Assembly: GCA_950295325.1 (NCBI GenBank)
Contig: OX485804.1
Coordinates: forward strand, 68,114,033-68,178,032
Reading direction: 5' to 3'
Length of the DNA: 64,000 nucleotides
Source of the DNA: Polytrichum commune
Lineage: Eukaryota; Streptophyta; Polytrichopsida; Polytrichales; Polytrichaceae
Position 1 is the stretch's first letter, and each line of letters begins with the position of its first letter. The position numbers and the translations under genes were made by a program. A model generated the notes under the pieces. That model was not told the origin of the DNA and searched no databases. It saw only the letters and a list, made by a program, of their open reading frames with translations. Positions 5,717 through 64,000 of the stretch are shown here, in pieces.

Positions 5717-6178
5717 TTGAATACTTGAGAAAGTAGACGGCATTACTAAAATATTATAAAATATACACACTAAATCAGCACACTAAATTTAAGTGTCATT
5801 TTAGAATGACAAAAACAATTTCAAATGGTAAGTCATAAAAATTATGACCTCAATGTTAATAAGGAATTTATAATTTTATTTGACCTCCAAGTTAATTACG
5901 TGCTTCATTGATGGTTTCACTTCCGGAATGAAATCCCAATGAATTGCTTATTTACTTGTTGGAAGTGCACATATATATTGGATTTTAGACCTTGAAGGTG
6001 AAGTGCACTCATTATGGGATTTGTAGTCAAGCGGCCTTCAAGAATGCAAGTGCAATGTTTTTTTCCAAGTTGAGCGGGGTAGGCAGCAGTTTTCGATCGG
6101 GTTCAAAACTTTCACTGGAGGCTGCCCCTGCCCGGATCTGACACTCCCCATAGTTCGTATGGGGAAACTTAATGTCCG
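5717..6178. mobile_element. Half of a foldback element
   Basis: The sequence from AATACTTG.GAAAGTAG to the end near GAGGCTGCCCC matches the right arm of the complete foldback element at 26883-28139 in the same orientation. The other arm is missing. It sits inside the truncated CBL copy, at the breakpoint where CBL exons 7 and 8 are lost. Confidence 0.65.
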
Positions 6179-15957: not shown

Positions 15958-16145
15958 CTGGGATCAGTGCCACAGGGCGAGCAAGAGCGAGAGAGAGATC
16001 GAGTCTTTTGAGGAATAGTGAGAGAGAGAGAGCGAGAGAGCAGTGGCCTGGCAGCTGCTAAGTAATCTCCTCTTCTGTTTCTCTCACTGCCTGTGGTGGC
16101 AATCAGTCTTTCCGAGCGACCGGAGCCGATCTTCCAGGGTTACAT

Positions 16146-16485
16146 GTAAGTAGGGTGGGAGCTAGAGCCGGTCGAGCATATCGCTTTTTGAAGCTGTAGT
16201 TGCGGCAGCAGCGACCTAGTGGTAAGATCCAGTCGGGTGCTTTGGTGTTCTTGTTGTCGTCGATCGGTTTTTGAGGGTGTAATTCCTGGCTCTTACTTGT
16301 TCGAACATGGAGTTGGACCCAGTTCTTGAGCACTGGGATCTTTATTTTAGCTCGTTTGATTGATAGGATTATGTGATCTAAACCACACATGTGCTGCTTC
16401 TTATTAGCTGGCTAGTTCATTTTGTTTTAGCCTCGAGATCGTAGGATTGAACAATGTTACATTGGTGTTTGATATTGCGGTTCAG
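16146..16485 (+). other. Predicted 5'-UTR intron of kinase 1
   Basis: The donor ACAT|GTAAGTAGG and the acceptor GCGGTTCAG|ATATTC bracket 340 bases. The start codon lies 20 bases after the acceptor. The same intron, with near-identical sequence, occurs at 28618-28957 ahead of kinase 2. Its high conservation contrasts with the diverged coding exon that follows. Confidence 0.65.
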
Positions 16486-16505: not shown

Positions 16506-19477
16506 ATGGTGTTCTACAAATGCACTCTCTACAACGGGACCGGCCATGCGCTCCATATCAAAGGATTATACCTGGGTATATACATACCTGAATATATACA
16601 TATTTCTCAAAATGATTTTGTCATAAACCCCGGCGAGAAATATATATATATGTTCCCTTTTGATGCGGATGCTACCTATCGAGAGTTTGCTGTCTGGCGT
16701 GACCATGAAACAAATGGTCGAGATCGCTCTATATTTTTTACTAATGGCGACGTTGTCGAGTGGGAGGAGATTAAATTCTATACGCCACTGGACGGCGTCC
16801 ATGACGAGTGGGTTGGCACCAAGAAGCGGCCAACCAGGATTTACGGGAAGGTATCAAGTAATCCCAATGTGACCAAATCTACTTCCATCCGGTCAGCAGT
16901 ATGTTGCATACACGATTTCATCACCATTTAGAAGTACCTATTTGTTACGTGTACGAATTTGTATTGCAAGTACATGACACGAATAACTTGCTAAGAAGTT
17001 TCTTAGATTTTTTCCACAATGAAAAGATAATGTCATACTCTCAAAGTTGATCAACAAAAGAACGCATCAAAACTACGAGAAATATAATAAAAACTCCAAA
17101 AATAGAAGTGAACATGACTGTAGGCATTTTGTTCCATCAATAACCACTAAATATGGGGATTTGACAGAAGACATGCCATGTGTTGTGGTTGGAATCCTTG
17201 ACCTAGTCATCACCCCCTACAATAAACATATTGAGCTCCCAATCGTCATTTTGTTCAACTTCTTAGATCCATGATAATCATAATACTATTAAAAGGTAGA
17301 CTTCAATAACTTTAATTGACCTCTAGCTGCAATTGAAATCTTCTTCAAGATCGAAACTGAGTATGATCAACAAGAAAGCCATAGTTTGGGTTCCTGGTAC
17401 GATAGGGGTTAGTATTGTGTTCTCCTTTATTACTTTCTAATCAAGTAAGAACAAGTATACTAGACTACAAGGTATATATGTACCTATGACCTGAGGAAAA
17501 TTTGATGATGTAAAAATTTTAGTCAACACGTAGGTGGAGTGATTTTCCTCGCAAATAGAATGTGTTTCAGTGTAGTCTTGTTATGGTAAAGTTTACTCAG
17601 TCCTAGAGTTCAAGCTACGGGTTATTGCGGTCTATTTTACTAGAAAAGATTCGAAGGATATACTTTCTGGTGAATAAAACTGGAGTAATCGAGAGGTTTG
17701 GATATGCTATTTTCCATTTAAGAGGTGTCTGGATACACGCATGGTTGAGCTTACTTTATACCCTTGAGTTTTCACTTCTTGTATGACACTTGGTTTCGTT
17801 GTGCTCCAGGAAAGGGATGAGTACGAATCTGTGAAAAAAGACATTTCTGCGAGAATGAAAATGATTCTTTCACGCTGCAACAAATTGGAGGTGCATCTGA
17901 AAAACATCAAGATATATCATGCACAAAGCAAACATCTTGTTCAAACTTTCTCGGAGGGCATTCAAGAAATGGCAGAAAACTACACAAAGTTTTCACAAGT
18001 CGAGTCTAACATTGTGAGGTTGTATGCATCCAGGAAATTGCGGATCCTACTAAATATTTTAGACAGTCTCGAGAATTGTGTGCGGGATACAGAAGAGTTT
18101 TTATTGGAGTGCAAAGGGGAATGGAAAGTTCTTGCTATTCAACTCTCTGTGCAGTTACGTTATCCTGGAACGACCAGACGATCTAAGTTTGACCACCTCA
18201 TTGGTGAGCTACGCTGGAATCTTGACAAAATCCAATATATACTATGCTTGGGAGAGGCATTAGCGGAGGTAGAATGGAATTGGTGCAATATACGATGCAG
18301 GTATGTATTAACAGAAGCAGGCCGTGGAGGTGTAGATCATGAAGGACCTGATATTGGTGAATCAAGTGTAGGTTACAGGGACAGTGACCGTGCCAATTTA
18401 AGTCACCACTTGGAGGATGGATCCATATTTGCACTGGAGAATTTCCTTACTATTTTGAAGCCCTGGACGTGGTTTGCTCAGAATGGATCACCAGAAGCTT
18501 TTGGAGAAATTCTGAAGAAGAGGTTGTGTATAGAGAGATGTATCTCCAAGCCTAGTTCAATTCCTGTAAAGAATTTTGAGATTAATCATCTGGAACTCAA
18601 GTATAAGAGTACGAAGCCCTCAAACGGAGGAGCATTTAAGAGTATCTACAGAGGAGAGTGGTATGGACAGGAGGTTGCGATTGCCATTATGGTGGAGAAT
18701 GAAGATGTAGAACTAGAGTGTCTCGTGGAAAAAGAGGCAGGGTTTTTGCTGGAGCTGCAACATCCAAATATTGTGGCGTTTTATGGGTATTCCTATACAC
18801 GTGTTGCACGTTTGCCTGAATCCAAGAGTCCCACAGCAGCAGCTTATCTTGTAATGGAGCTGATGGACAGCGACCTGTCACAAGCAATAAGGACCCGCTG
18901 GAGGTCTACAGGCCCTTTCTCAATCTCTGTCGCACTTGATATTATGTTGCAGATTGTTGAAGGCATGGTCTATCTGCATGAACAGGACATCATGCATCGA
19001 GATCTTAAGCCCATGAATTGCTTGGTGAAAGCTAGATCTGCACCATCAGATGTGTACTACACTGTCAAATTAACTGATTTTGGATCAGCCAGAGAAGTGA
19101 ATACAGAATCCACATCCGATTTGTTTACTGTGAGGCCAGGAACTACGCGGTGGATGGCACCAGAAATGTTGGGGACCAAAGGCAACTGCGAGAAGGTAAA
19201 ATATACAAAATCTGCAGATGTGTATGGGTTTGCCGTAATTTGCTACCAAGTTGTCACTGGTGTGGTGACACCCATGCCTGAGATAAGACCACGTGATGTG
19301 ATGGAGGCGGTAAGGAATGGCGCACGACCTTCATTTCCCGCATCTCTCAGTTATCCAGAGGCTTTGAAGCAGCTCATCATCAATTGTTGGCACGAAGAGC
19401 CTGGCTCTCGACCAAACTTCGTAGACATACGGGAAAGATTGTGGACCATCAGAAAAGATGTAGAGCTTCAAGGATAG
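16506..19477 (+). CDS. TKL-like kinase with WNK-like lysine placement, copy 1
   Basis: Predicted exons are 16506-16850 and 17810-19477, joined in phase 0 (K|ERDEYE), giving about 670 residues. Residues 1-115 form a beta-rich domain of unknown family (CTLYN..TGHALHIK, INPGEKY, WEEIKF). Residues about 116-290 are helical and charged (SARMKMILSRCNKLEVHLKN; LENCVRDTEEFLLEC). A kinase domain spans about 375-660. The catalytic loop is HRDLKPMN (D513), the metal motif is DFG (D538), then GTTRWMAPEM and SADVYGF, which are TKL-like. The glycine loop is NGGAFKSIY with a lysine at 392. The VAIK position is VAIA, so the usual lysine is missing. A likely alphaC glutamate is E424. Relative to copy 2 there is an in-frame 45-base insertion (LENFLTILKPWTWFA). 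No signal peptide or membrane segment is obvious. The first exon could instead end at its own stop (16931) if unspliced. Confidence 0.8.
17047..17700. other. Intron 2 of kinase 1 (16851-17809), no internal gene
   Basis: The 959-base intron runs from AAG|GTATCAAGT to GTGCTCCAG|GAAAGG. It is nearly identical to the matching intron of kinase 2 (29329-30275), apart from small indels. Open frames inside it are not conserved between copies. Confidence 0.7.
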
Positions 19478-26882: not shown

Positions 26883-28139
26883 CGGCTAGGGTGAACCAAC
26901 ACCCACACTCGTACCCTCGGGGGATGAAGGCCTCGCGGATGACACTGAAAACTTCATCCTTCTTTAGTGGGGAAGCTCCCCCTTAGAAAGGGGGCAGCCT
27001 CCAAGGAAATTTCTGAACCTGACCGAAAAGTGCTACCCGCCCCGCCCAACTTCAAAAAAAATATTGCTCTTGCATTCTTGAAGGCCGCTTGACTACAAAT
27101 CCCATATTGAGTGCACTTTGCCTTCAAGGTCTAAAATCCAATATATATGTGCACTTCCAATTAGTAAATAAGCAATTCATTGGGATTTCATTCCGGAAAT
27201 GAAACCATCAATGAAGCATGTAATCAACTTGGAGGTCAAATAAAATTACAAAATCCTCATTAACATTGAGGTTATAATTTTTTTGACTTACCATTTGAAA
27301 TTGTCTTTGTCATTCTAAAATGACACTTAAATTTAGTGTGCTGATTTAGTATGTATATTCTATAATATTTTAGTAACGCCGCCTACTTTCACAAGTATTC
27401 ATTAAAAAATTAATTAAAAAATTAATTAAAAAAATTAATTAAAAAAAATTAAAATACTGGAATTAATTAATTATTTAAATGTAATTACTGGAATTATAAT
27501 TAATTAGTCTTACTTAATTTGGTAAGCACACTTTTCTGATTTATTTGGGCTTAAATAGGATTCATCAGAATTAATTAGACTTAATGACATTAAATCACAC
27601 TGAATTGGTTTGAATGTGTATAAATACTTGTGAAAGTAGGCGGCGTTACTAAAATATTATAGAATATATATACTAAATCAGCACACTAAATTTAAGTGTC
27701 ATTTTAGAATGACAAAGACAATTTCAAATGGTAAGTCAAAAAAATTATAACCTCAATGTTAATGAGGATTTTGTAATTTTATTTGACCTCCAAGTTGATT
27801 ACATGCTTCATTGATGGTTTCATTTCCGGAATGAAATCCCAATGAATTGCTTATTTACTAATTGGAAGTGCACATATATATTGGATTTTAGACCTTGAAG
27901 GCAAAGTGCACTCAATATGGGATTTGTAGTCAAGCGGCCTTCAAGAATGCAAGAGCAATATTTTTTTTGAAGTTGGGCGGGGCGGGTAGCACTTTTCGGT
28001 CGGGTTCAGAAATTTCCTTGGAGGCTGCCCCCTTTCTAAGGGGGGGCTTCCCCACTAAAGAAGGATGAAGTTTTCAGTGTCATCCGCGAGGCCTTCATCC
28101 CCCGAGGGTACGAGTGTGGGTGCTGGTTCACCCTAGCCG
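26883..28139. mobile_element. Complete foldback element, 1257 bp
   Basis: Two arms of about 515 bases (26883-27399 and 27623-28139) are near-perfect inverted copies, from CGGCTAGGGTGAACCA at the left end to its complement TGGTTCACCCTAGCCG at the right. They enclose a 223-base AT-rich centre with runs of ATTAATTAAA. The right end abuts the shared promoter/leader of kinase 2. A related element is at 50390-51690 and a half copy at 5717-6178. No protein is encoded. Transcribed, it would give a very long hairpin RNA. Confidence 0.85.
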
Positions 28140-28617: not shown

Positions 28618-28957
28618 GTAAGTAAGGTGGGAGCTAGAGCCGGTCGAGCATATCGCTTTTTGAAGCTGTGATTGCCGCAGCAACGACCTAGTGATAAGAT
28701 CCAGTCGGGTGCTTTGGTGTTCTTGTTGTCGTCGATCGGTTTTTGAGGGTGTAATTCCTGGCTCTTGCTTGTTCGAACATGGAGTTGGACCCAGTTCTTG
28801 AGCACTGGGATCTCTATTTTAGCTCGTTTGATTGATAGGATTATGTGATCTAAACCACACATGTGCTGCTTCTTATTAGCTGGCTAGTTCATTTTGTTTT
28901 AGTCTCGAGATCGGAGGATTGAACAGTGTTACATTGGTGTTTGATATTGCGGTTCAG
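28618..28957 (+). other. Predicted 5'-UTR intron of kinase 2
   Basis: The donor GCAT|GTAAGTAAGG and the acceptor GCGGTTCAG|ATATTC define 340 bases. The intron is nearly identical to the kinase 1 leader intron. The start codon lies 20 bases past the acceptor. Confidence 0.65.
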
Positions 28958-28977: not shown

Positions 28978-31901
28978 ATGCGGTTGGTTAAATGCACTCT
29001 CTACAACCTCACCGGCCATGCGCTCCACATCAAAGAAAGTTTTTATGATCAAGGGATCCGCACCAAAGAAGGTTACTTTGGTCAAGACAGCAGCCATAGT
29101 GGTGTCATAAACCCCGGCGAGAAATATAGATTTCAAGTAGATTGGAATGCTTCCTATCAAGAGTTTGTTGTGCGGCGTGACCATGAGCCAAAATATCCAG
29201 ATCGCCCTCTATATTTTAGTTCTGAAGACGTTATCGACTGGGAGGAGATTAAATTCTTTACGCCAGGGGACGGCGTCGATGACGAGTGGGTTGGCACCGA
29301 GGCGCGGCGATCCTTGCCTTTCGCCAAGGTATCAAGTAATCCCAATGTGAGCAAATCTACTTCCATCCTGTCAGCAGTATGTTGCATATGCGATTTCACC
29401 ACCATTTGAAAGTACCTATTTGTTAAGTGTACGAATTTGTATTGCAAGCACATGACACGAATAACTTACTAAGAAGTTTCTTAGATTTTTTCCACAATGA
29501 AAAGATAATGTCATACTCTCAAAGTTGATCAACAAAAGAACACATCAAAAATACCAGAAATATAATAAAAACTCCAAAAAGAAAAGGGAACATGACTGCA
29601 GGCATTTTGTTCCATCAATAACCACTATAAATATGGGGATTTGATAGGAGACATGCCATGTGTTGTGGTTGGAATCCTTGACCTAGTCATCACCCCCTAC
29701 AATAAACATATTGAGCTCCCAATCGTCATTTTGTTCAACTTCTTAGATCCATGAGAATCATAATACTATTAAAAGGTAGGCTTCAATAACTTAAATGGAC
29801 CTCTAGCTGAAATCGAAATCTTCTTCGAAACTGAGTATGACCAACAAGAAAGCCATAGTTTGGGTTCCTGGTACGATAGGGGTTAGTATTGTGTTCTCCT
29901 TTATTACTTCTAATCAAGAACAAGTATACTAGACTACAAGGTATATATGTACCTATCCCCTGAGGATATTTTGATGTAAAAATTTCAGTCAACACGTAGG
30001 TGGAGTGATTTTCCTCACAAATAAAATGTGTTTCAGTGTAGTCTTGTTATGGTAAAGTTTACACAGTCCTAGAGTTCAAGCTACAGGTTATTGCGGTCTA
30101 TTTTTCTAGAAAAGATTCGTAGGATATACATTCTGGTGAATAAAACTGGAGTAATCGAGAGGTTTGGATATGCTATTTTCCATTTAAGAAGTGTCTGGAT
30201 ACATGCATGCTTGGGGTTACTTTATACCCTTGAGTTTTCACTTCTTGTATGACACTTGGTTTCGTTGTGCTCCAGGAAAGGGGTGAGTACGAATCTGTGA
30301 AAAAAGACATTTCTGCGAGAATGAAAATGATTCTTTCACGCTGCAACAAATTGGAGGTGCATCTGAAAAACATCAAGATATATCATGCACAAAGCAAACA
30401 TATTGTTCAAACTTTCTCGGAGGGCATTCAAGAAATGGCAGAAAACTACACAAAGTTTTCACAAGTCGAGTCTAACATTGTGAGGTTGTATGCATCCAGG
30501 AAATTGCGGATCCTACTAAATATTTTAGACAGTCTCGAGAATTGTGTGCGGGATACAGAAGAGTTTTTATTGGAGTGCAAAAGGGAATGGAAACTTCTTG
30601 CTCTTCAAGTCTCCGTGCCGTTACGATATCCTGCAACGACCAGACGATCTAAGTTTGACCACCTCATTGGTGAGCTACGCTGGAATCTTGACAAAATCCA
30701 ATATACACTATGCTTGGGAGAGGCATTATCGAAGGTAGAATGGAAGTGGTGCACTATACGATGCAGGTATGTATTAACAGAAGCAGGCCGTGGAGGTGTA
30801 GATCATGAAGGACCTGATATTGGTGGATCAAGTCTAGGTGACAGGGACAGTGACTGTGCCAATTTAAGTCACCACTTGGAGGATGGATCCATATTTGCAC
30901 AGAATGGATCACCAGAAGCTTTTGGAGGAATTCTGAAGAAGAGGTTGTCTACAGAGAGATGTATCTCCCATACGAACAAGTCTAGCTCAGTTCCTGTAAA
31001 GAATTTTCAGATTAATCATCTGGAACTCAAGTATAAGAGCACGAAGCCCTTAAACAGAGGAAGTTTTAAGAGAATCTACAGAGGAGAGTGGTATGGACAG
31101 GAAGTTGCGATTGGCATTATGGTGCAGAATGACGCACTAGAGTGTCTGGTGGAAAAAGAGGCAGGGTTTTTGCTGGAGCTGCAACATCCAAATATTGTGG
31201 CGTTTTATGGGTATTCGTATACACGTGATGCACGCTTGCCTGAATCCGAGAGTCCCACAACAGCAGCTTATCTTGTAATGGAGCTGATGGAAAGCGACCT
31301 GTCTGACGTTATTGATCGTCGCTGGAGGTCTACAGGCCCTTTCTCAATCTCTGTCGCACTTGATATTATGTTGCAGATTGTTGAAGGCATGGTTTATTTG
31401 CATGAACAGGACATCATGCATCGAGATCTTAAGCCAATGAATTGCTTGGTGAAATCTAGATCAGCACCACCAGATGTGTACTACACTGTCAAATTAACTG
31501 ATTTTGGATCAGCCAGAGAAGTGGATACAGAATCCACATCCGATTTGTTTACTGTGAGGCCAGGAACTACGCGGTGGATGGCACCAGAAATGATGGGGGC
31601 CAAAAACAACTGGGAGAAGGTAAAATATACAAAATCTGCAGATGTGTATGGGTTTGCGGTAATTTGCTACCAAGTTGTCACTGGTGAGGTGACACCCATG
31701 CGTGAGATAAGAGGAGGTGATGTGATGGAGGCGGTAAGGAATGGCGCACGACCTTCATTTCCCGCATCTCTCAGTTATCCAGAGGCTTTGAAGCAGCTCA
31801 TCATCAACTGTTGGCACGAAGAGCCTGGCTCTCGACCAAACTTCGTAGACATACGGGAAAGATTGTGGACCATCAGAAAAGATGTAGAGCTTCAAGGATA
31901 G
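28978..31901 (+). CDS. TKL-like kinase with WNK-like lysine placement, copy 2
   Basis: Predicted exons are 28978-29328 and 30276-31901, phase 0, giving about 658 residues. The layout matches copy 1: an N-terminal beta-rich domain (1-117), a helical domain (about 118-285) and a kinase domain. The glycine loop is NRGSFKRIY with a lysine at 382, and the VAIK position is VAIG (G397). HRDLKPMN (D501), LTDFG (D526) and MAPEM are intact, so catalysis is possible if K382 replaces the missing lysine as in WNK kinases. The N-terminal domain matches copy 1 only about half, while the kinase exon is roughly nine-tenths alike. In-frame differences are the absence of the 15-residue insert and a small indel (SHTNKSSS versus SKPSS). 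No signal peptide or membrane segment is seen. A cytosolic signalling kinase is likely. Its pathway is unknown. Confidence 0.8.
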
Positions 31902-31974
31902 ACGCCGGACTCCTACAAATTATTCATGAGGCATCTGATGCATATGGGTACAGATAACCCTCCAGAGATGTTAC

Positions 31975-50389: not shown

Positions 50390-50944
50390 TTTTTTGGACC
50401 TGACCGAAAACTTCTGCCCACCCCGCCCAACGTTCAAGATTGAAGCCCTTATATGAGTTTCATTTTGAAGGGTTCTCAAATTTCAACCCTTCGGTTTCGG
50501 TTGAAGGGCCGGTTCAATTCCAAGTTGTTAATCTAAGAATATAGAAATGAAATACAAAACTCATATTAAACTTGTGCATGAATTGTCTGGTACATGTTTT
50601 CAGTACAGTGTGAAGAATTAAGAATCAACCATCTAACTCCACTTCTTGTAGTGACAGTGTCCTACGCTTGTTGGTTCTTGTGGCGGGCAGATTATATTGA
50701 GGGTTTCAAGTGACGTCTTCATTTTCAATTTGGGGTTGCGTTTCGAAGGGTTGTTTTGAGAGGGGTATATTTTGAAGGGCCAAATCGTGTTTGAAGGGCA
50801 TTGAAGACTTCAATCTTGAACATTGACCCCGCCCGACTTCAAAAAAACCATTGCTCTTGCATTTTTGGAGGCTACTTATCCACAAATCTCATATTGAGTG
50901 CACTTCACCTTCAAGGTCCAAAATCCTATATATATGTATATATT

Positions 50945-50987
<43 letters not shown>

Positions 50988-51499
50988 CCACTTAGTAAAG
51001 AAGCAATTGACTTGGATTTCATTCCAAAAGTGAAAGTGTCAACAAAACACGTAATTAACTTGGAAGTCAAAAACATTACAAAATCCTCATTAGCATTGAT
51101 GTTATAACTTTTGTAACTTACCATTTGAAAGGGTCTTTGTCATTCTAGAATGAAACTTAAAATACTGTGTTGATTGTAGCATGTATGTTTTATAGTAGTT
51201 TAGGTAATGTGGCTTGATTACATTTGATCAAGCTTAATTAGTTTGAATGCGTATGAATACTTGTGAAAGTAGGAGGCATTACCTAAACTACTATATAAAA
51301 TATACATAGTGAAATCAACACAGTAATTTAAGTTTCATTTTAGAATGACAAAGACCCCTTCAAATGATAAGTCACAAAAGTTAGAACATCAATGCTAATG
51401 AGGATTTTGTAATGTTTTTGACTTCCAAGTTAATTACGTGCTTTATTGACACTTTCAATTCTGGATTGAAATCCTAGTCAATTGCTTCTTTACTAAATG

Positions 51500-51536
<37 letters not shown>

Positions 51537-51690
51537 TGATTGGATTTTGGACCTTGAAGGTGAAGTGCACTCAATATGGAATTTGTGGATAAGTGGCCCT
51601 TTAAAATGCAAGGGCAATGGTCTTTTTGAAGTCGGGTGGGGTAGGCAAAAGTTTTCGGTCGGGTCCCAAAAATCTCGATTTCTTTTGGGG
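50390..51690. mobile_element. Second foldback element, with nested MITE
   Basis: The arms (left from GACCTGACCGAAAAC; right to GTTTTCGGTCGGGTC) are inverted copies meeting at a centre near 51230 (CTTGATTACATTTGATCAAG). They are related to the element at 26883-28139. (TG)n and (AC)n runs at about 50960-50988 and 51506-51533 sit at mirror positions in the two arms, so the microsatellite seed was present before the arms were inverted, or is kept by exchange between them. Confidence 0.75.
50432..50821. mobile_element. MITE nested in the left arm of the foldback
   Basis: The ends GTTCAAGATTGAAG and CTTCAATCTTGAAC are perfect inverted repeats, with GAAGGG/CCCTTC repeats inside. It splits the arm sequence ACCCCGCCC(A/G)AC, which appears on both sides as a target duplication of about 11-12 bases, apart from a few extra bases at the right. 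A Mutator-like size, but uncertain. Confidence 0.65.
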
Positions 51691-58000: not shown

Positions 58001-60161
58001 TCGGTAGGTTAAGGTTAGGCGCGTGTCAAGGTTGGAATTCACTCTCACCTTGGTCCACCGAACTGCGTGTCAAAACCGGCGTTTTGGAACGTGTGGGACC
58101 GCCCCCCACATGAGCAAGACCAAACTTGGAGAGAGTATGAGTTCAGTACATCTAGCATAACATATTTAAGTAGCCTATTTAGGTTGTGGCGCAAATGGAA
58201 TGATGCCTGGGTCATTCGCTTACCCTAAGAATGACTCCATTTTGGGCACACTCCTCCAATTGAATTTTATAGGTGGGAGAAGGCTTTGTGTCCGAAGCTA
58301 GGCAACAATGAGGAGAGGATCAATGAGAGCTTGCCACTTGACTATGGCATTCATGCATGTGATCAAGGACCTTCATTCTTAACATTCCTGAAGCTGGAAT
58401 AGAAAGAGAGCGCCCTTACACATGCTTAAGAATGTTTCGGAAGCCTAACAGAAGAGAACGGCTTAAAAGCGAGAATAAAATATGATAGGATTCACACAGG
58501 GGTAGAAGCAGGTCACTCTAAATCAATGAATGGGCAGGTAGGCCATTTCCAAAAGTGAGAGATACCCATCATCTGGTCACACTACTAATTTGCCCTAATT
58601 TCTGAGAGCTTCATCAGCTACAATCTGTACAAAGCAGCAGGACTCATTGAACTACTTTCCTCCTTTCGCACTTCAGCAGTTGCCTGCAACAATTATCTTC
58701 CTTAAAAATCATGGTGAGTTGAAGATCTGACTTGCAGACAAAATTGAGGTGGCTCAGATGCAGTGATGCAGTTTTACAGGAAATCGAGGGAGATAGTGGC
58801 TTTCACTCCCTCAGATTTAATTAGGCACTTGAGCAAGCATGGGTAGCAGATTAAAGATGGTAGTATTATGTAACCTCGCAGTTGTTGTCCGCTGTGCATT
58901 AATGATCTGACTTTTATATACCACTCGCGCACGGTGAACATCAGACATTTCGGAACGTCAAGGACCCTCCCACAAGTTGGGGAGCCACCAATTTGTGCAC
59001 CGAGAACGTTTGACGTCCGATCACAGTGTTTAAAACAGTCGTCAAACGTTTTAAAACGTTCAACAACTCTTAACGCATAATAAGAGAAAAGACCAAGTTA
59101 CCTTCCTCGTCACAAATCCCCGGCTTGAGATTGACGACAATTTTATTCAACCTCGTGTGTGAGTCATGACTTTCTACCCAAATCACTTTACCCAAACGTT
59201 GGACAATTGGAACATTCGACGTCTCGAAAAAAATCTGCACTCGCACGCGTGATGCTACTTTTTTAAACATCGGATGTTCGGCGTGTGCGAGTGATGTATT
59301 AAATCGGAGGTGGCTCAGATCATGCTCTGATCGACTATTCTGCAGATTTTAGAGGAAAGTGAGGGAGAATATATTTGATATATATATATAGCGGCCTACA
59401 CCCGCAGAGATTGATTAAGAGGCACTTGGACAAGCTGCACGATGGTTGCAATTGTCAGCAGAATAAAGATGGTGAAAATGTATGATGTAATTAACCTTGT
59501 AGTTGTTGTCCTTGTCAACAACCATGCCGGCAGCGATGAGCAACACCATCTCAAGCATGGGTGGGAGGGTCCTCCATGAATTTGTGAGGGGATTGCACAC
59601 AGCCAAAGTCATGTAACCCCTGGCATCAAACTTGGAGATGAAGCATGCCAACCCTCCATGTGCGGCACACAAGCTAAACCCGTCGTGGCCCAACAGGCCA
59701 GCAAACAGTTTGGGGATCTTGTACCATTTGCCTGGCCCTTCCGGATCGAACGTCAACCCATCGTTGCTGCATTCGCTCGCAGAAAAGTAGAACCAGGAGT
59801 TGCCCCAATTAGCGTTGGAGGCTGCCGAGCGGCCGCATGCTGTCAGAAACCGTGGTTCTTGAATCAACGCGTTCCAAGCCTTGCAAACAGTGCGGAACCG
59901 GAAAAGTGATGGCAGTGGTAATCGGGGAAGAATGTCTTCGATGAGGATGTCTGGGAAATTGCACCAGAGATCAGCGTCCATGGTGCTTGATGCAAGCTGG
60001 TCTAATTCTTTCTGGGTTTTGGTGGCCCGGACAGCGGACACTTGTAAGCAGCTGTCCATTGTTCTGGCTGTGGATGATGCTACTGCTGCTTTCTTGTTAA
60101 CTGCTACAATAGTCTTGGTCACCGGGACCACGACAACTGATTTTGTTTGTCTGGGCTTCAT
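55003..60161 (-). CDS. F-box protein with kelch-like C-terminal domain
   Basis: Three exons on the minus strand: 60161-59496, 57859-57575 and 55452-55003, all phase 0 with GT-AG borders, giving about 466 residues. The start ATG (MKPRQTKS) is the first in frame after a TGA 42 bases upstream. A basic, low-complexity N-terminus is followed by the F-box at about 66-105 (FPDILIEDILPRLPLPSLFR then FRTVCKAWNALI). The C-terminal region has kelch/F-box-associated repeats (CNPLTNSWRTLPPM; YDTQTDCWRESG; GNLYAWCYVADILVKFDPAT; CGGKLMMVAGL). Family role: substrate receptor of an SCF ubiquitin ligase through SKP1. It resembles the plant group with a single-kelch-like C-terminus; the substrate is unknown. 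Poly-Thr and PPPRRE in exon 3 look like a loop expansion. Both introns are long (1.6 and 2.1 kb) and hold repeat DNA. Confidence 0.85.
55453..57574. other. Intron 2 of the F-box gene
   Basis: The 2.1-kb intron contains repeat fragments, for example 55685-55800, related to 8990-9080 and 47440-47540 (GATTAGCAAATCCAAA..GTGCAT). No nested gene is recognised. Confidence 0.6.
58740..59520. repeat. Intronic direct duplication spanning the splice donor
   Basis: The segment 58740-58895 (GAGGTGGCTCAGAT .. CTCGCAGTTGTTGTCC) is a diverged copy of 59305-59520 (GAGGTGGCTCAGAT .. CTTGTAGTTGTTGTCC), which contains the 3' end of exon 1 and its donor. The inner copy has altered donor-side sequence. The MITE at 58916-59308 lies between the copies. 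Confidence 0.6.
58916..59308. mobile_element. MITE-like insertion in F-box intron 1
   Basis: The ends are imperfect inverted repeats of about 40 bases: TCTGACTTTTATATACCACT then CGCGCACGGTGAACATCAGA at the left, and the complement of TCCGATTTAATACATCACTC then GCACACGCCGAACATCCGAT at the right. The interior has repeated AACGTT-containing motifs. The target duplication is not clear. Confidence 0.6.
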
Positions 60162-60234
60162 TCTTCGATCGGAACATGCAGTTCGAATCTCAAATGCCAA
60201 ATCTCAAAAGCTAATTCTGCTGAAGGAGTGAAAA

Positions 60235-62159: not shown

Positions 62160-64000
62160 CTACCCAGTGCTATGAACACGGCCTAATCCAACAGAAGAAA
62201 GAATCAAGAAAACAACAACATGAAGACCTAGTACATAAGCAACTGTCAAAGTGCGTAGAAACATACTCCTCCTCAGCTGACTCCCAGCATGCATACTAAA
62301 AGCATCAACAGTTCGGGCCACCCGTGCTACATTTTCTGTAACCTTTGCACCCCTCTGCCGAATGGCTGCAGACCGCTGTGTAGCATTCTCTAAAGCAAGT
62401 GTTGCAGCTTGTGATGACAGTCCCGATGATGACCTGCCAATCTTGTTCCTCTTGAAAAAATCAAGGTCACCATTGCCAGCCAGTAGGTTACGACGTGCCT
62501 CACTAGCTTGCTCTAGACGAAGTTCCAGTGCACTTCTTTCATTTGCAAGTGACTCTGCCTGAGCCTGTATGCAAATATAAGGAACATCAATTCATGTACC
62601 TTAGACCTAAATTAAGCATCTGATCCAGCCCAAAGCATTTTGGTAAGTGAAAACTATGCTGAAAATCAGTGACCAATATTCTTTGCGTCAAAAGTACATG
62701 CACCATAGTAACTAATTTGCTCTACAATGTGAAGTTTTACTAGCATAGCCGCAGAGAGGAAACACCATTATATGTTCAGATGGATCTTCTTACAAAATCA
62801 GATCATTGACTAGTTACATATGCTGTTTGACCTGATAATAAGACTGGAGTTGAGCAGGAAATTTGGTGATACCTGCTTTGTTACAAGTTGCTCAGTCAAG
62901 CTTCGCAACCTTCGCTCAAGCTCTTTCTCTCTTTGTGCTGCAATACAACCAAAACCCATATTACTTCAACTGTCACACAATCTGGACACCTGTTTTGGAA
63001 ATATCAGCCCTCTTTTATAGCTTGATCCCCATATATTGCAAGTCTAAGTCTCCATGCACATTGAGATTGCCTAAGAGCCACATATACAAGTCTGAGATAC
63101 TTAGCACTCCCAAATACTATGCGTTTGCTCTCCAAACTTTACCGCCATATAAAGGAAACTGATTCTTACATGGGGAAGGATATCTTGATGTATTGTGCTG
63201 CAAGGCCACCCACTCTTTCTCTAATCGTAGCACTTTGCTTTCCCACCTTGCCTGCACAAGATTTTCTCATCATCCTTTCAACATTTCTGGAAGAATCTTT
63301 CAACTCTGACGAGTCCAATATTTCCACTCATTCTCAGACATAAATTGACCGTCCTTATCATTATCAAAATGAACACCTCTGGGGACCAACAGGCCCTAAC
63401 AAGCAGTGAAGAAAATTTTCTTATATATTTCCTATCAAGAATTAAGGCATGCAAACAGTGGGGAACTATTTAATTACAAAACTACCAGTTAGTGTCCAAA
63501 TGATGACAGTTTTTGGACAGGAGTGTTTTATATTGCCTTTGAAACAAATGTCCCAGTGATGTAGACAACTCTTACCAGCTCAGTCTTGATAGAATGCAAT
63601 TCTTGTTCTTCAAGTGTGGTGTCATTTGGCGAGCCAGATAATGCAGAGTGCTTGTCTTCATCTAATTGCTTCTTCTCACTTAGTGCTGCTAATGAAGCAG
63701 CACCATCCCTTTCAGCAAGAGCTGCTTCTAGATGCTGCAGCTCAGCCTTCAGCTTATCTTCAGTAAACTCCATATCCTGTGAAACATATGCCACACAGCA
63801 AAGTAAGAATTGACAATGAACATATTCACAACTAGTCATGTTCCCTCACAACAGTTGTAAGAAATAAATCCACTTGCATTGAATCTGAAAGTGGAAGTGA
63901 AAGTGCTTCCTTATTCAGAACATTCTCTAACCAAGGACATGTTACAGAAAGGTATTCGAAGGAGTTCTACAAGTGTATATACCATCTGTGGGCATTGACT
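62160..64000 (-). CDS. Golgin-84-like Golgi coiled-coil protein, C-terminal part
   Basis: Four consecutive exons of a minus-strand gene whose 5' part lies beyond the window: 63776-63576, 63251-63170, 62937-62873 and 62564-62160. All have GT-AG borders and compatible phases. The product is a charged coiled coil (MEFTEDKLKAELQHLEAALA; REKELERRLRSLTEQLVTKQ; ESLANERSALELRLEQASEA). A GNGDLDFFKRNKIG linker follows. The C-terminal membrane anchor is FLRTLTVAYVLGLHVVVFLI, ending GRVHSTG. The coiled-coil/anchor layout and the KQxQxExLxxERxxxExxLE segment match plant golgin-84 (golgin candidate 1/2) proteins, which tether vesicles at the Golgi. No further exon is recognised in 63777-64000. Confidence 0.85.

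Follow-up and report, generated by a model that had tools for sequence, protein, structure and literature searches.

The window, the whole 64,000-nucleotide stretch of moss DNA analysed here (C2:68114033-68178032), carries two copies of a tandemly repeated gene. The searched assembly comprises 408 Mb in 64 contigs, of which C1 to C7 measure 77.9, 70.3, 59.2, 59.1, 52.9, 44.7 and 42.1 Mb. Exon and kinase searches of this assembly place a tandem array of five copies (k1, k2, k3, A and B) on C2 at 68.066-68.146 Mb, with A and B inside the window and k1, k2 and k3 upstream of it. A sixth family member, L004, is a distant copy on C1 with a kinase exon 54% identical; frames between its DUF7748 exon and its kinase exon (L004:2595-6984) look Copia-like when judged by eye. 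In each array copy a leader exon is followed by intron 1 (340-341 nt), by an exon 2 made up of 20 nt plus the DUF7748 part, by intron 2 (947-959 nt) and finally by the kinase exon. The leader exon, putatively non-coding, is predicted from splice sites. A preliminary description of this DNA had placed introns 1, the coding exons and introns 2 of A and B correctly; its "first exon" is more exactly the first one that codes, with the putative non-coding leader ahead of it. The features of A and B are as follows.

16036-16145, plus strand: copy A leader exon, putatively non-coding; 5' limit approximate, a GTAAGT donor closing the block of homology
16146-16485, plus strand: copy A intron 1 (GTAAGT...TCAG), differing by 2.4-5.9% between the array copies
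16506-16850, plus strand: copy A hypervariable coding exon, DUF7748 (PF24928); 345 nt, 115 codons; Pfam E 2.1e-6, 28.2 bits, cut-off 25
16851-17809, plus strand: copy A intron 2 (GTATCA...CCAG); 2.5-5.5% divergence among copies
17810-19477, plus strand: copy A last exon (open reading frame) with helical region, linker, TKL kinase and stop; PK_Tyr_Ser-Thr 2.5e-44
17813-18340, plus strand: copy A helical region, related in profile comparisons to MLKL_N-like regions of other TKL kinases of the same genome
18629-19444, plus strand: copy A kinase domain
18638-18640, plus strand: copy A glycine-loop lysine (GAFK) at a WNK-like position, from an alignment of 30 TKL kinases
18683-18685, plus strand: copy A alanine replacing the VAIK lysine, same alignment
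28618-28957, plus strand: copy B intron 1, from comparison among the five copies
28978-29328, plus strand: copy B hypervariable coding exon, DUF7748; 351 nt, 117 codons; Pfam E 9.6e-10, 38.9 bits, cut-off 25
29329-30275, plus strand: copy B intron 2, from comparison among the five copies
30276-31901, plus strand: copy B last exon with helical region, linker, TKL kinase and stop; Pfam 1e-43; 6lba_A E 3.5e-36 over the kinase
31035-31868, plus strand: copy B kinase domain
31068-31070, plus strand: copy B glycine-loop lysine (GSFK), same alignment
31113-31115, plus strand: copy B glycine replacing the VAIK lysine, same alignment

The leader regions of A and B are 95.5% identical over 16034-16145. 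Upstream of gene B lies an inverted repeat with 520-nt arms that are 99% complementary (26883-27402 and 27620-28139); together with related pieces at 5718-6128 and 50826-51671 it forms a foldback-type element family. The window also holds an F-box domain frame (59415-60203, minus strand; PF00646, 6.6e-8) and a Golgin A5-like exon (62160-62591, minus strand; PF09787, 8.4e-9).

Both last exons encode TKL kinases (Pfam 2.5e-44 for A and 1e-43 for B), with HRD, DFG and APE motifs in the translations. A PDB search with exon 3 of B returns, by way of its kinase, 6lba_A as best match (3.5e-36), 6ka4_A as second (4.8e-28) and MLK4 as next (1.4e-26); we take 6lba and 6ka4 to be Arabidopsis MLKLs (AtMLKLs). 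No WNK kinase appears among the best 60 of 1087 PDB matches of the B exon, the best being MLKL, MLK and RAF kinases, and searches with the single relatives L010 and L014 give kinase matches only. For comparison, 29 further kinase loci (L010-L038) were taken, of which 24 had a usable frame and were aligned, while L022, L025, L030, L031 and L032 had none. In the alignment of 30 TKL kinases, the VAIK lysine is replaced by alanine or glycine and a lysine is present in the glycine loop in six of six family members; the beta 3 lysine is kept in all 24 other TKL kinases aligned. Absence of the VAIK lysine and presence of a lysine in the glycine loop is the WNK motif, and the glycine-loop lysine of the array may serve WNK-like catalysis.

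The helical region in front of the kinase is linked to MLKL through other kinases of the genome. A profile built from the helical regions of 12 of them hits 6lba over residues 20-127 (2.1e-7) and, next, mammalian MLKL N-termini (0.008-0.02), and a 21-row profile that includes the array finds 6lba at 1.7e-8. The helical region of L023 matches MLKL_N at 2.6e-8, over the cut-off (one of eight regions scanned), and eight of 20 MLKL_N matches in the genome are over the cut-off. The array's own six-row helical profile found no MLKL (best E 0.68, GSK3), and the B helical region gave no MLKL_N match. With hhalign, the array region aligns to three other TKL regions at E 5.7e-5 (probability 66%) and to twelve at 4.6e-4 (probability 33%). 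The array helical region is thus probably MLKL-like, not a proven MLKL, and may be of HeLo type. The array is best explained as one protein type, in which DUF7748 precedes a helical region, probably MLKL_N/HeLo-like, and a TKL kinase with a displaced catalytic lysine. Exons 2 and 3, modelled with AlphaFold2 from two-row alignments, reached mean pLDDT values of 47 and 31, too poor for fold comparison. A PDB search with the DUF7748 profile gave two matches and nothing useful (best E 1.1), and the literature searched yielded no mention of DUF7748.

Between A and B, intron 1 is 96.8%, intron 2 95.4% and the kinase exon 95.6% identical over ungapped columns (64 gap columns in the kinase exon), whereas the DUF7748 exon is 82.4% identical, and 60 of the 378 columns of its DNA alignment contain gaps. 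As protein this exon is 55% identical, which agrees with the preliminary description of exons that match about half between near-identical introns, and codons 2-4 all differ in the codon alignment, as it had said. Sampling of further paralogues extends the exon-specific divergence to ten of ten array pairs: the DUF7748 exon differs by 18.6-37.6%, with 18-108 gap columns, compared with 2.4-5.9% of aligned sites in introns 1 and 2 and 3.2-11.1% in the kinase exon. Kinase exons are close, as described earlier, within A/B/k3 and within k1/k2 (3.2-5.7%), but differ by up to 11.1% between these groups. Edit distance, an alignment-free lower bound on divergence, gives 98/351 (0.279) for the DUF7748 exon of A and B, 0.032 for intron 1, 0.060 for intron 2 and 0.080 for the kinase exon, and over the ten pairs 0.275-0.455 for the DUF7748 exon against 0.026-0.074 for the introns. 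This contrast is far beyond chance, which is rejected as the cause of the exon divergence. Because five loci carry the same pattern, the A/B exon pair is unlikely to be an assembly chimera. The upstream regions of both genes share four blocks of 0.9-1.3 kb with 93.0-97.5% identity, matching the introns, so the introns are not unusually conserved. Within the DUF7748 exon the differences are clustered, with short stretches changed wholesale. Open DUF7748 frames are kept in A, B, k1 and k2, and the k1 coding exon 2 is short (243 nt) and only poorly alignable. Coding exon 2 of k3 (L002:1455-1776) has 322 nt and is frameshifted near its 3' end; the k3 kinase exon is open, and k3 may be a pseudogene or encode a truncated product.

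For codon analyses of the DUF7748 exon, gapped codons were excluded from the codon models and the k3 exon was cut before the frameshift; k1, whose exon is barely alignable, was left out of the DUF7748 codon models and of the comparison of dN with intron divergence. The preliminary description had proposed diversifying selection and had named a dN/dS at or below 1 as the sign against it. NG86 estimates for the DUF7748 exon range from 0.97 to 2.60 and exceed 1 in nine of ten pairs (1.11-2.60), k1-k2 being the pair at 0.97. In the six pairs that do not involve k1, dN is 7.2-10.8 times intron divergence, with bootstrap limits from 4.7 to 16.1, and 6.2-9.5 times when gap-adjacent codons are removed. 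Site models prefer M2a over M1a for k3/A/B (p = 4.9e-5, selected class omega 11.5) and for k2/k3/A/B (p = 8.2e-8 and 8.7e-7 under two topologies, class omega 9.0-9.7). A single omega tested against 1 (M0) is 1.63 and not significant for k3/A/B (p = 0.16); for four copies p is 0.004-0.005. Thirteen DUF7748 sites have a posterior above 0.9, and 11 of them lie outside anchor stretches chosen by eye.

The kinase exon likewise prefers M2a (p 5.0e-8 and 1.3e-8), as does the kinase domain alone (p = 4.7e-7), so DUF7748 is not the only part with a positive-selection signal. Values above 0.9 are reached at six sites of the kinase exon, two of them in the glycine loop (261 and 263), three after APE (440, 442 and 444) and one at 347. 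For the helical part alone, M2a is not preferred (p = 0.09), and M0 gives an omega of 1.72 (p = 0.03). Since recombination can inflate site-model tests, we place more weight on the intron comparison and on a control of stand-alone DUF7748 genes.

A genome profile search for DUF7748 listed 58 matches, of which 52 are over the cut-off. Copy k3 scores 44 bits, next to 28.2 for A and 38.9 for B (cut-off 25), and k1 and k2 are absent from the 58 matches. The control consists of eight stand-alone tandem genes among the 52, five on C1 and three on C3; three partial matches at C1:32494603-32494862 were left out. Across 13 of 13 pairs, omega is 0.14-0.38 in the C1 cluster and 0.43-0.51 in the C3 cluster, and the 3' flanks differ by 24-57%. 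The same domain in the same genome thus has the opposite pattern, purifying selection, in the eight stand-alone genes. The excess of amino-acid change over the introns, the rejection of M1a and this control together support diversifying selection on the DUF7748 exon of the array.

Silent divergence of the DUF7748 exon also exceeds that of the introns, and the intron-referenced ratio therefore overstates selection. Exon dS is 3.6-6.1 times intron divergence, or 2.2-3.9 times away from gaps, and in every one of the ten pairs codons for the same amino acid carry more silent change than the introns (P 1.7e-10 to 0.026), so that age, local mutation or misalignment accounts for some of the excess. 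The opening 150 nt of intron 2 are enriched in variable columns (24/150 versus 65/778, p = 0.006), and the intron 1 side is not significant (8/50 versus 28/300, p = 0.20).

Different parts of the array support different relationships among the copies. AU tests support k3 with B in intron 2 (0.995; others 0.002 and 0.007) and k3 with A in both the kinase exon and the 3' flank (others <2e-4); in intron 1 only k3 with A is rejected (0.011), and in the DUF7748 exon no topology is rejected. These conflicting topologies indicate that the array paralogues exchange sequence. The 3' flanks of A and B are 87.1% identical because the B flank is close to those of k1 and k2, and neutral divergence is consequently not uniform. 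From window position 31902 onward, compared with L003 and L001, the B flank differs by 0-9% from k1 and k2 in most 150-column windows, with maxima of 18% against k3 and 31% against A, which points to a breakpoint of exchange within the kinase exon or close to it. Between the k1-k2 and k3-A-B groups, kinase exon dS is 0.07-0.12, above intron divergence. A literature search on exchange between paralogues found no paper.

Several of these observations suit an account in which the copies are ancient duplicates whose introns and parts of the kinase exon were overwritten by recent conversion, while the DUF7748 exon escaped and owes its divergence mostly to age under weak constraint. The raised exon dS, the exchange between copies, the older neutral DNA in the 3' flank, the faint halo in intron 2 and the kinase exon dS between groups all speak for it. 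However, selection is required if one and the same exon is to escape in each of the five copies with its limits close to the splice sites, and dN is larger than dS in nine of the ten pairs. Nor is the silent change uniformly old: with anchors chosen by eye in four copies, pS is 0.05-0.13 in anchor codons and 0.09-0.34 in variable stretches, where pN is 0.28-0.53. The silent excess and the halo fit an exon shielded from homogenisation by selection for difference, and partly fit old duplicates too; we hold the latter account to be possible, though doubtful.

Patchwork exons produced by replacement from divergent DUF7748 donors would account for clustered differences and wholly changed short stretches, and the genome with its 52 matches over the cut-off could have supplied such donors. 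In DNA searches of this assembly, with the best candidates scored, the variable stretch of A matched only itself and the whole B exon gave eight matches, all within the array (C2 68.067-68.144 Mb); the corresponding protein search gave four, again all from the array. Conversion from an outside paralogue, as put forward in the preliminary description, is therefore not supported in this assembly, and we consider donor replacement improbable. Decay of a dispensable DUF7748 part under relaxed constraint would explain the frameshifted k3 exon (322 nt) and the shrunken k1 exon (243 nt), but it predicts change at about intron speed, whereas amino-acid sites change 7-11 times faster (pairs without k1) and frames stay open in A, B, k1 and k2, which makes it quite improbable. 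Self/non-self, mating or gamete recognition would leave the same signature, and the sequence does not name the partner, but we judge such a driver highly improbable given that NB-ARC shares a single frame with related TKL kinases of the genome, and given the action of plant MLKL-type kinases in pathogen resistance, as passages of PMC10951266 and PMC9950082 report.

The explanation we prefer, at a probability of roughly 0.5, is diversifying selection on the DUF7748 exon of an array with homogenised flanks, the exon encoding a recognition domain on an MLKL-like kinase. Sequence exchange would keep the tandem copies similar in their introns, their leader and parts of their kinase exon, and selection for difference would favour amino-acid changes and in-frame indels between conserved anchors in the DUF7748 exon. 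Converted exons would be selected against, so that the exon would gather more silent change than its flanks. By analogy with proposed integrated decoys (Sr43) and with Pm13, DUF7748 may act in recognition, either by binding a ligand that changes fast, for instance a microbial effector, or as a decoy that mimics the conserved stand-alone DUF7748 proteins. Signal relay could fall to the kinase and helical region, which might execute cell death in the manner of MLKL; ligand contact, immunity and cell death are roles suggested by this analogy. More tentatively, and with some doubt, the array could encode a non-NLR moss immune receptor that joins a hypervariable DUF7748 sensor, an MLKL-like helical executor and a WNK-like TKL kinase in one polypeptide, with one exon diversified and the array otherwise kept uniform by exchange.

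Hypervariability limited to one exon flanked by near-identical introns, with conserved stand-alone genes of the same domain as internal control, is unusually clean evidence for a recognition surface in an uncharacterised family, and it gives DUF7748 a testable role. If the MLKL-like reading is true, receptor and executor would be combined in one chain, outside the NLR class and in a non-flowering lineage.

Among known systems, plant MLKL or MLKL_NTD-kinase proteins (Arabidopsis MLKLs and Aegilops/wheat Pm13) share with the array an N-terminal helical region, a linker and a C-terminal kinase. The array differs in the added DUF7748 in front, in the displaced catalytic lysine and in a helical region without a direct MLKL profile match. 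Parts of PMC10951266 describe Pm13 as a cloned resistance gene of MLKL_NTD-kinase architecture, and an AtMLKL2 structure is noted in PMC9950082, in an excerpt, as deposited in the PDB. In portions of PMC11218826, MLKL is listed among NLR-associated proteins present in all species surveyed, including mosses; those portions contain no DUF7748-type fusion. Kinase fusions with a proposed integrated decoy, such as wheat Sr43 (a kinase and two DUFs), resemble the array in joining a kinase to another domain, and sections of PMC10260397 propose such fused domains as effector traps. The array's fused DUF7748 also exists as stand-alone proteins; compared with Sr43, its fused domain is N-terminal, hypervariable between tandem copies and in a moss.

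PK-NBS-LRR proteins (PNL, Pkn-NLR), described in the moss Physcomitrella (PMC3352924), are matched in this genome by related TKL kinases in a single frame with NB-ARC, for example at C7:27386251-27387963 in a frame of 1503 amino acids, whereas the array genes end after the kinase and have no NB-ARC. An NB-ARC profile search of the assembly gave many matches, at least 126 scored of 466 candidates; in its control, one of 14 genomes (Bacillus subtilis) also gave a signal. The abundance of NB-ARC and its linkage to TKL kinases point to a plant, probably a moss. WNK kinases share with all six family members the missing VAIK lysine and the glycine-loop lysine, but the array kinase is MLKL/MLK/RAF-like by its PDB ranking (best 60 of 1087 matches), so a WNK-like lysine swap would be convergent. 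As in fast-evolving tandem recognition clusters, the array combines an excess of amino-acid change over a neutral reference, with silent change raised too, and exchange among its copies.
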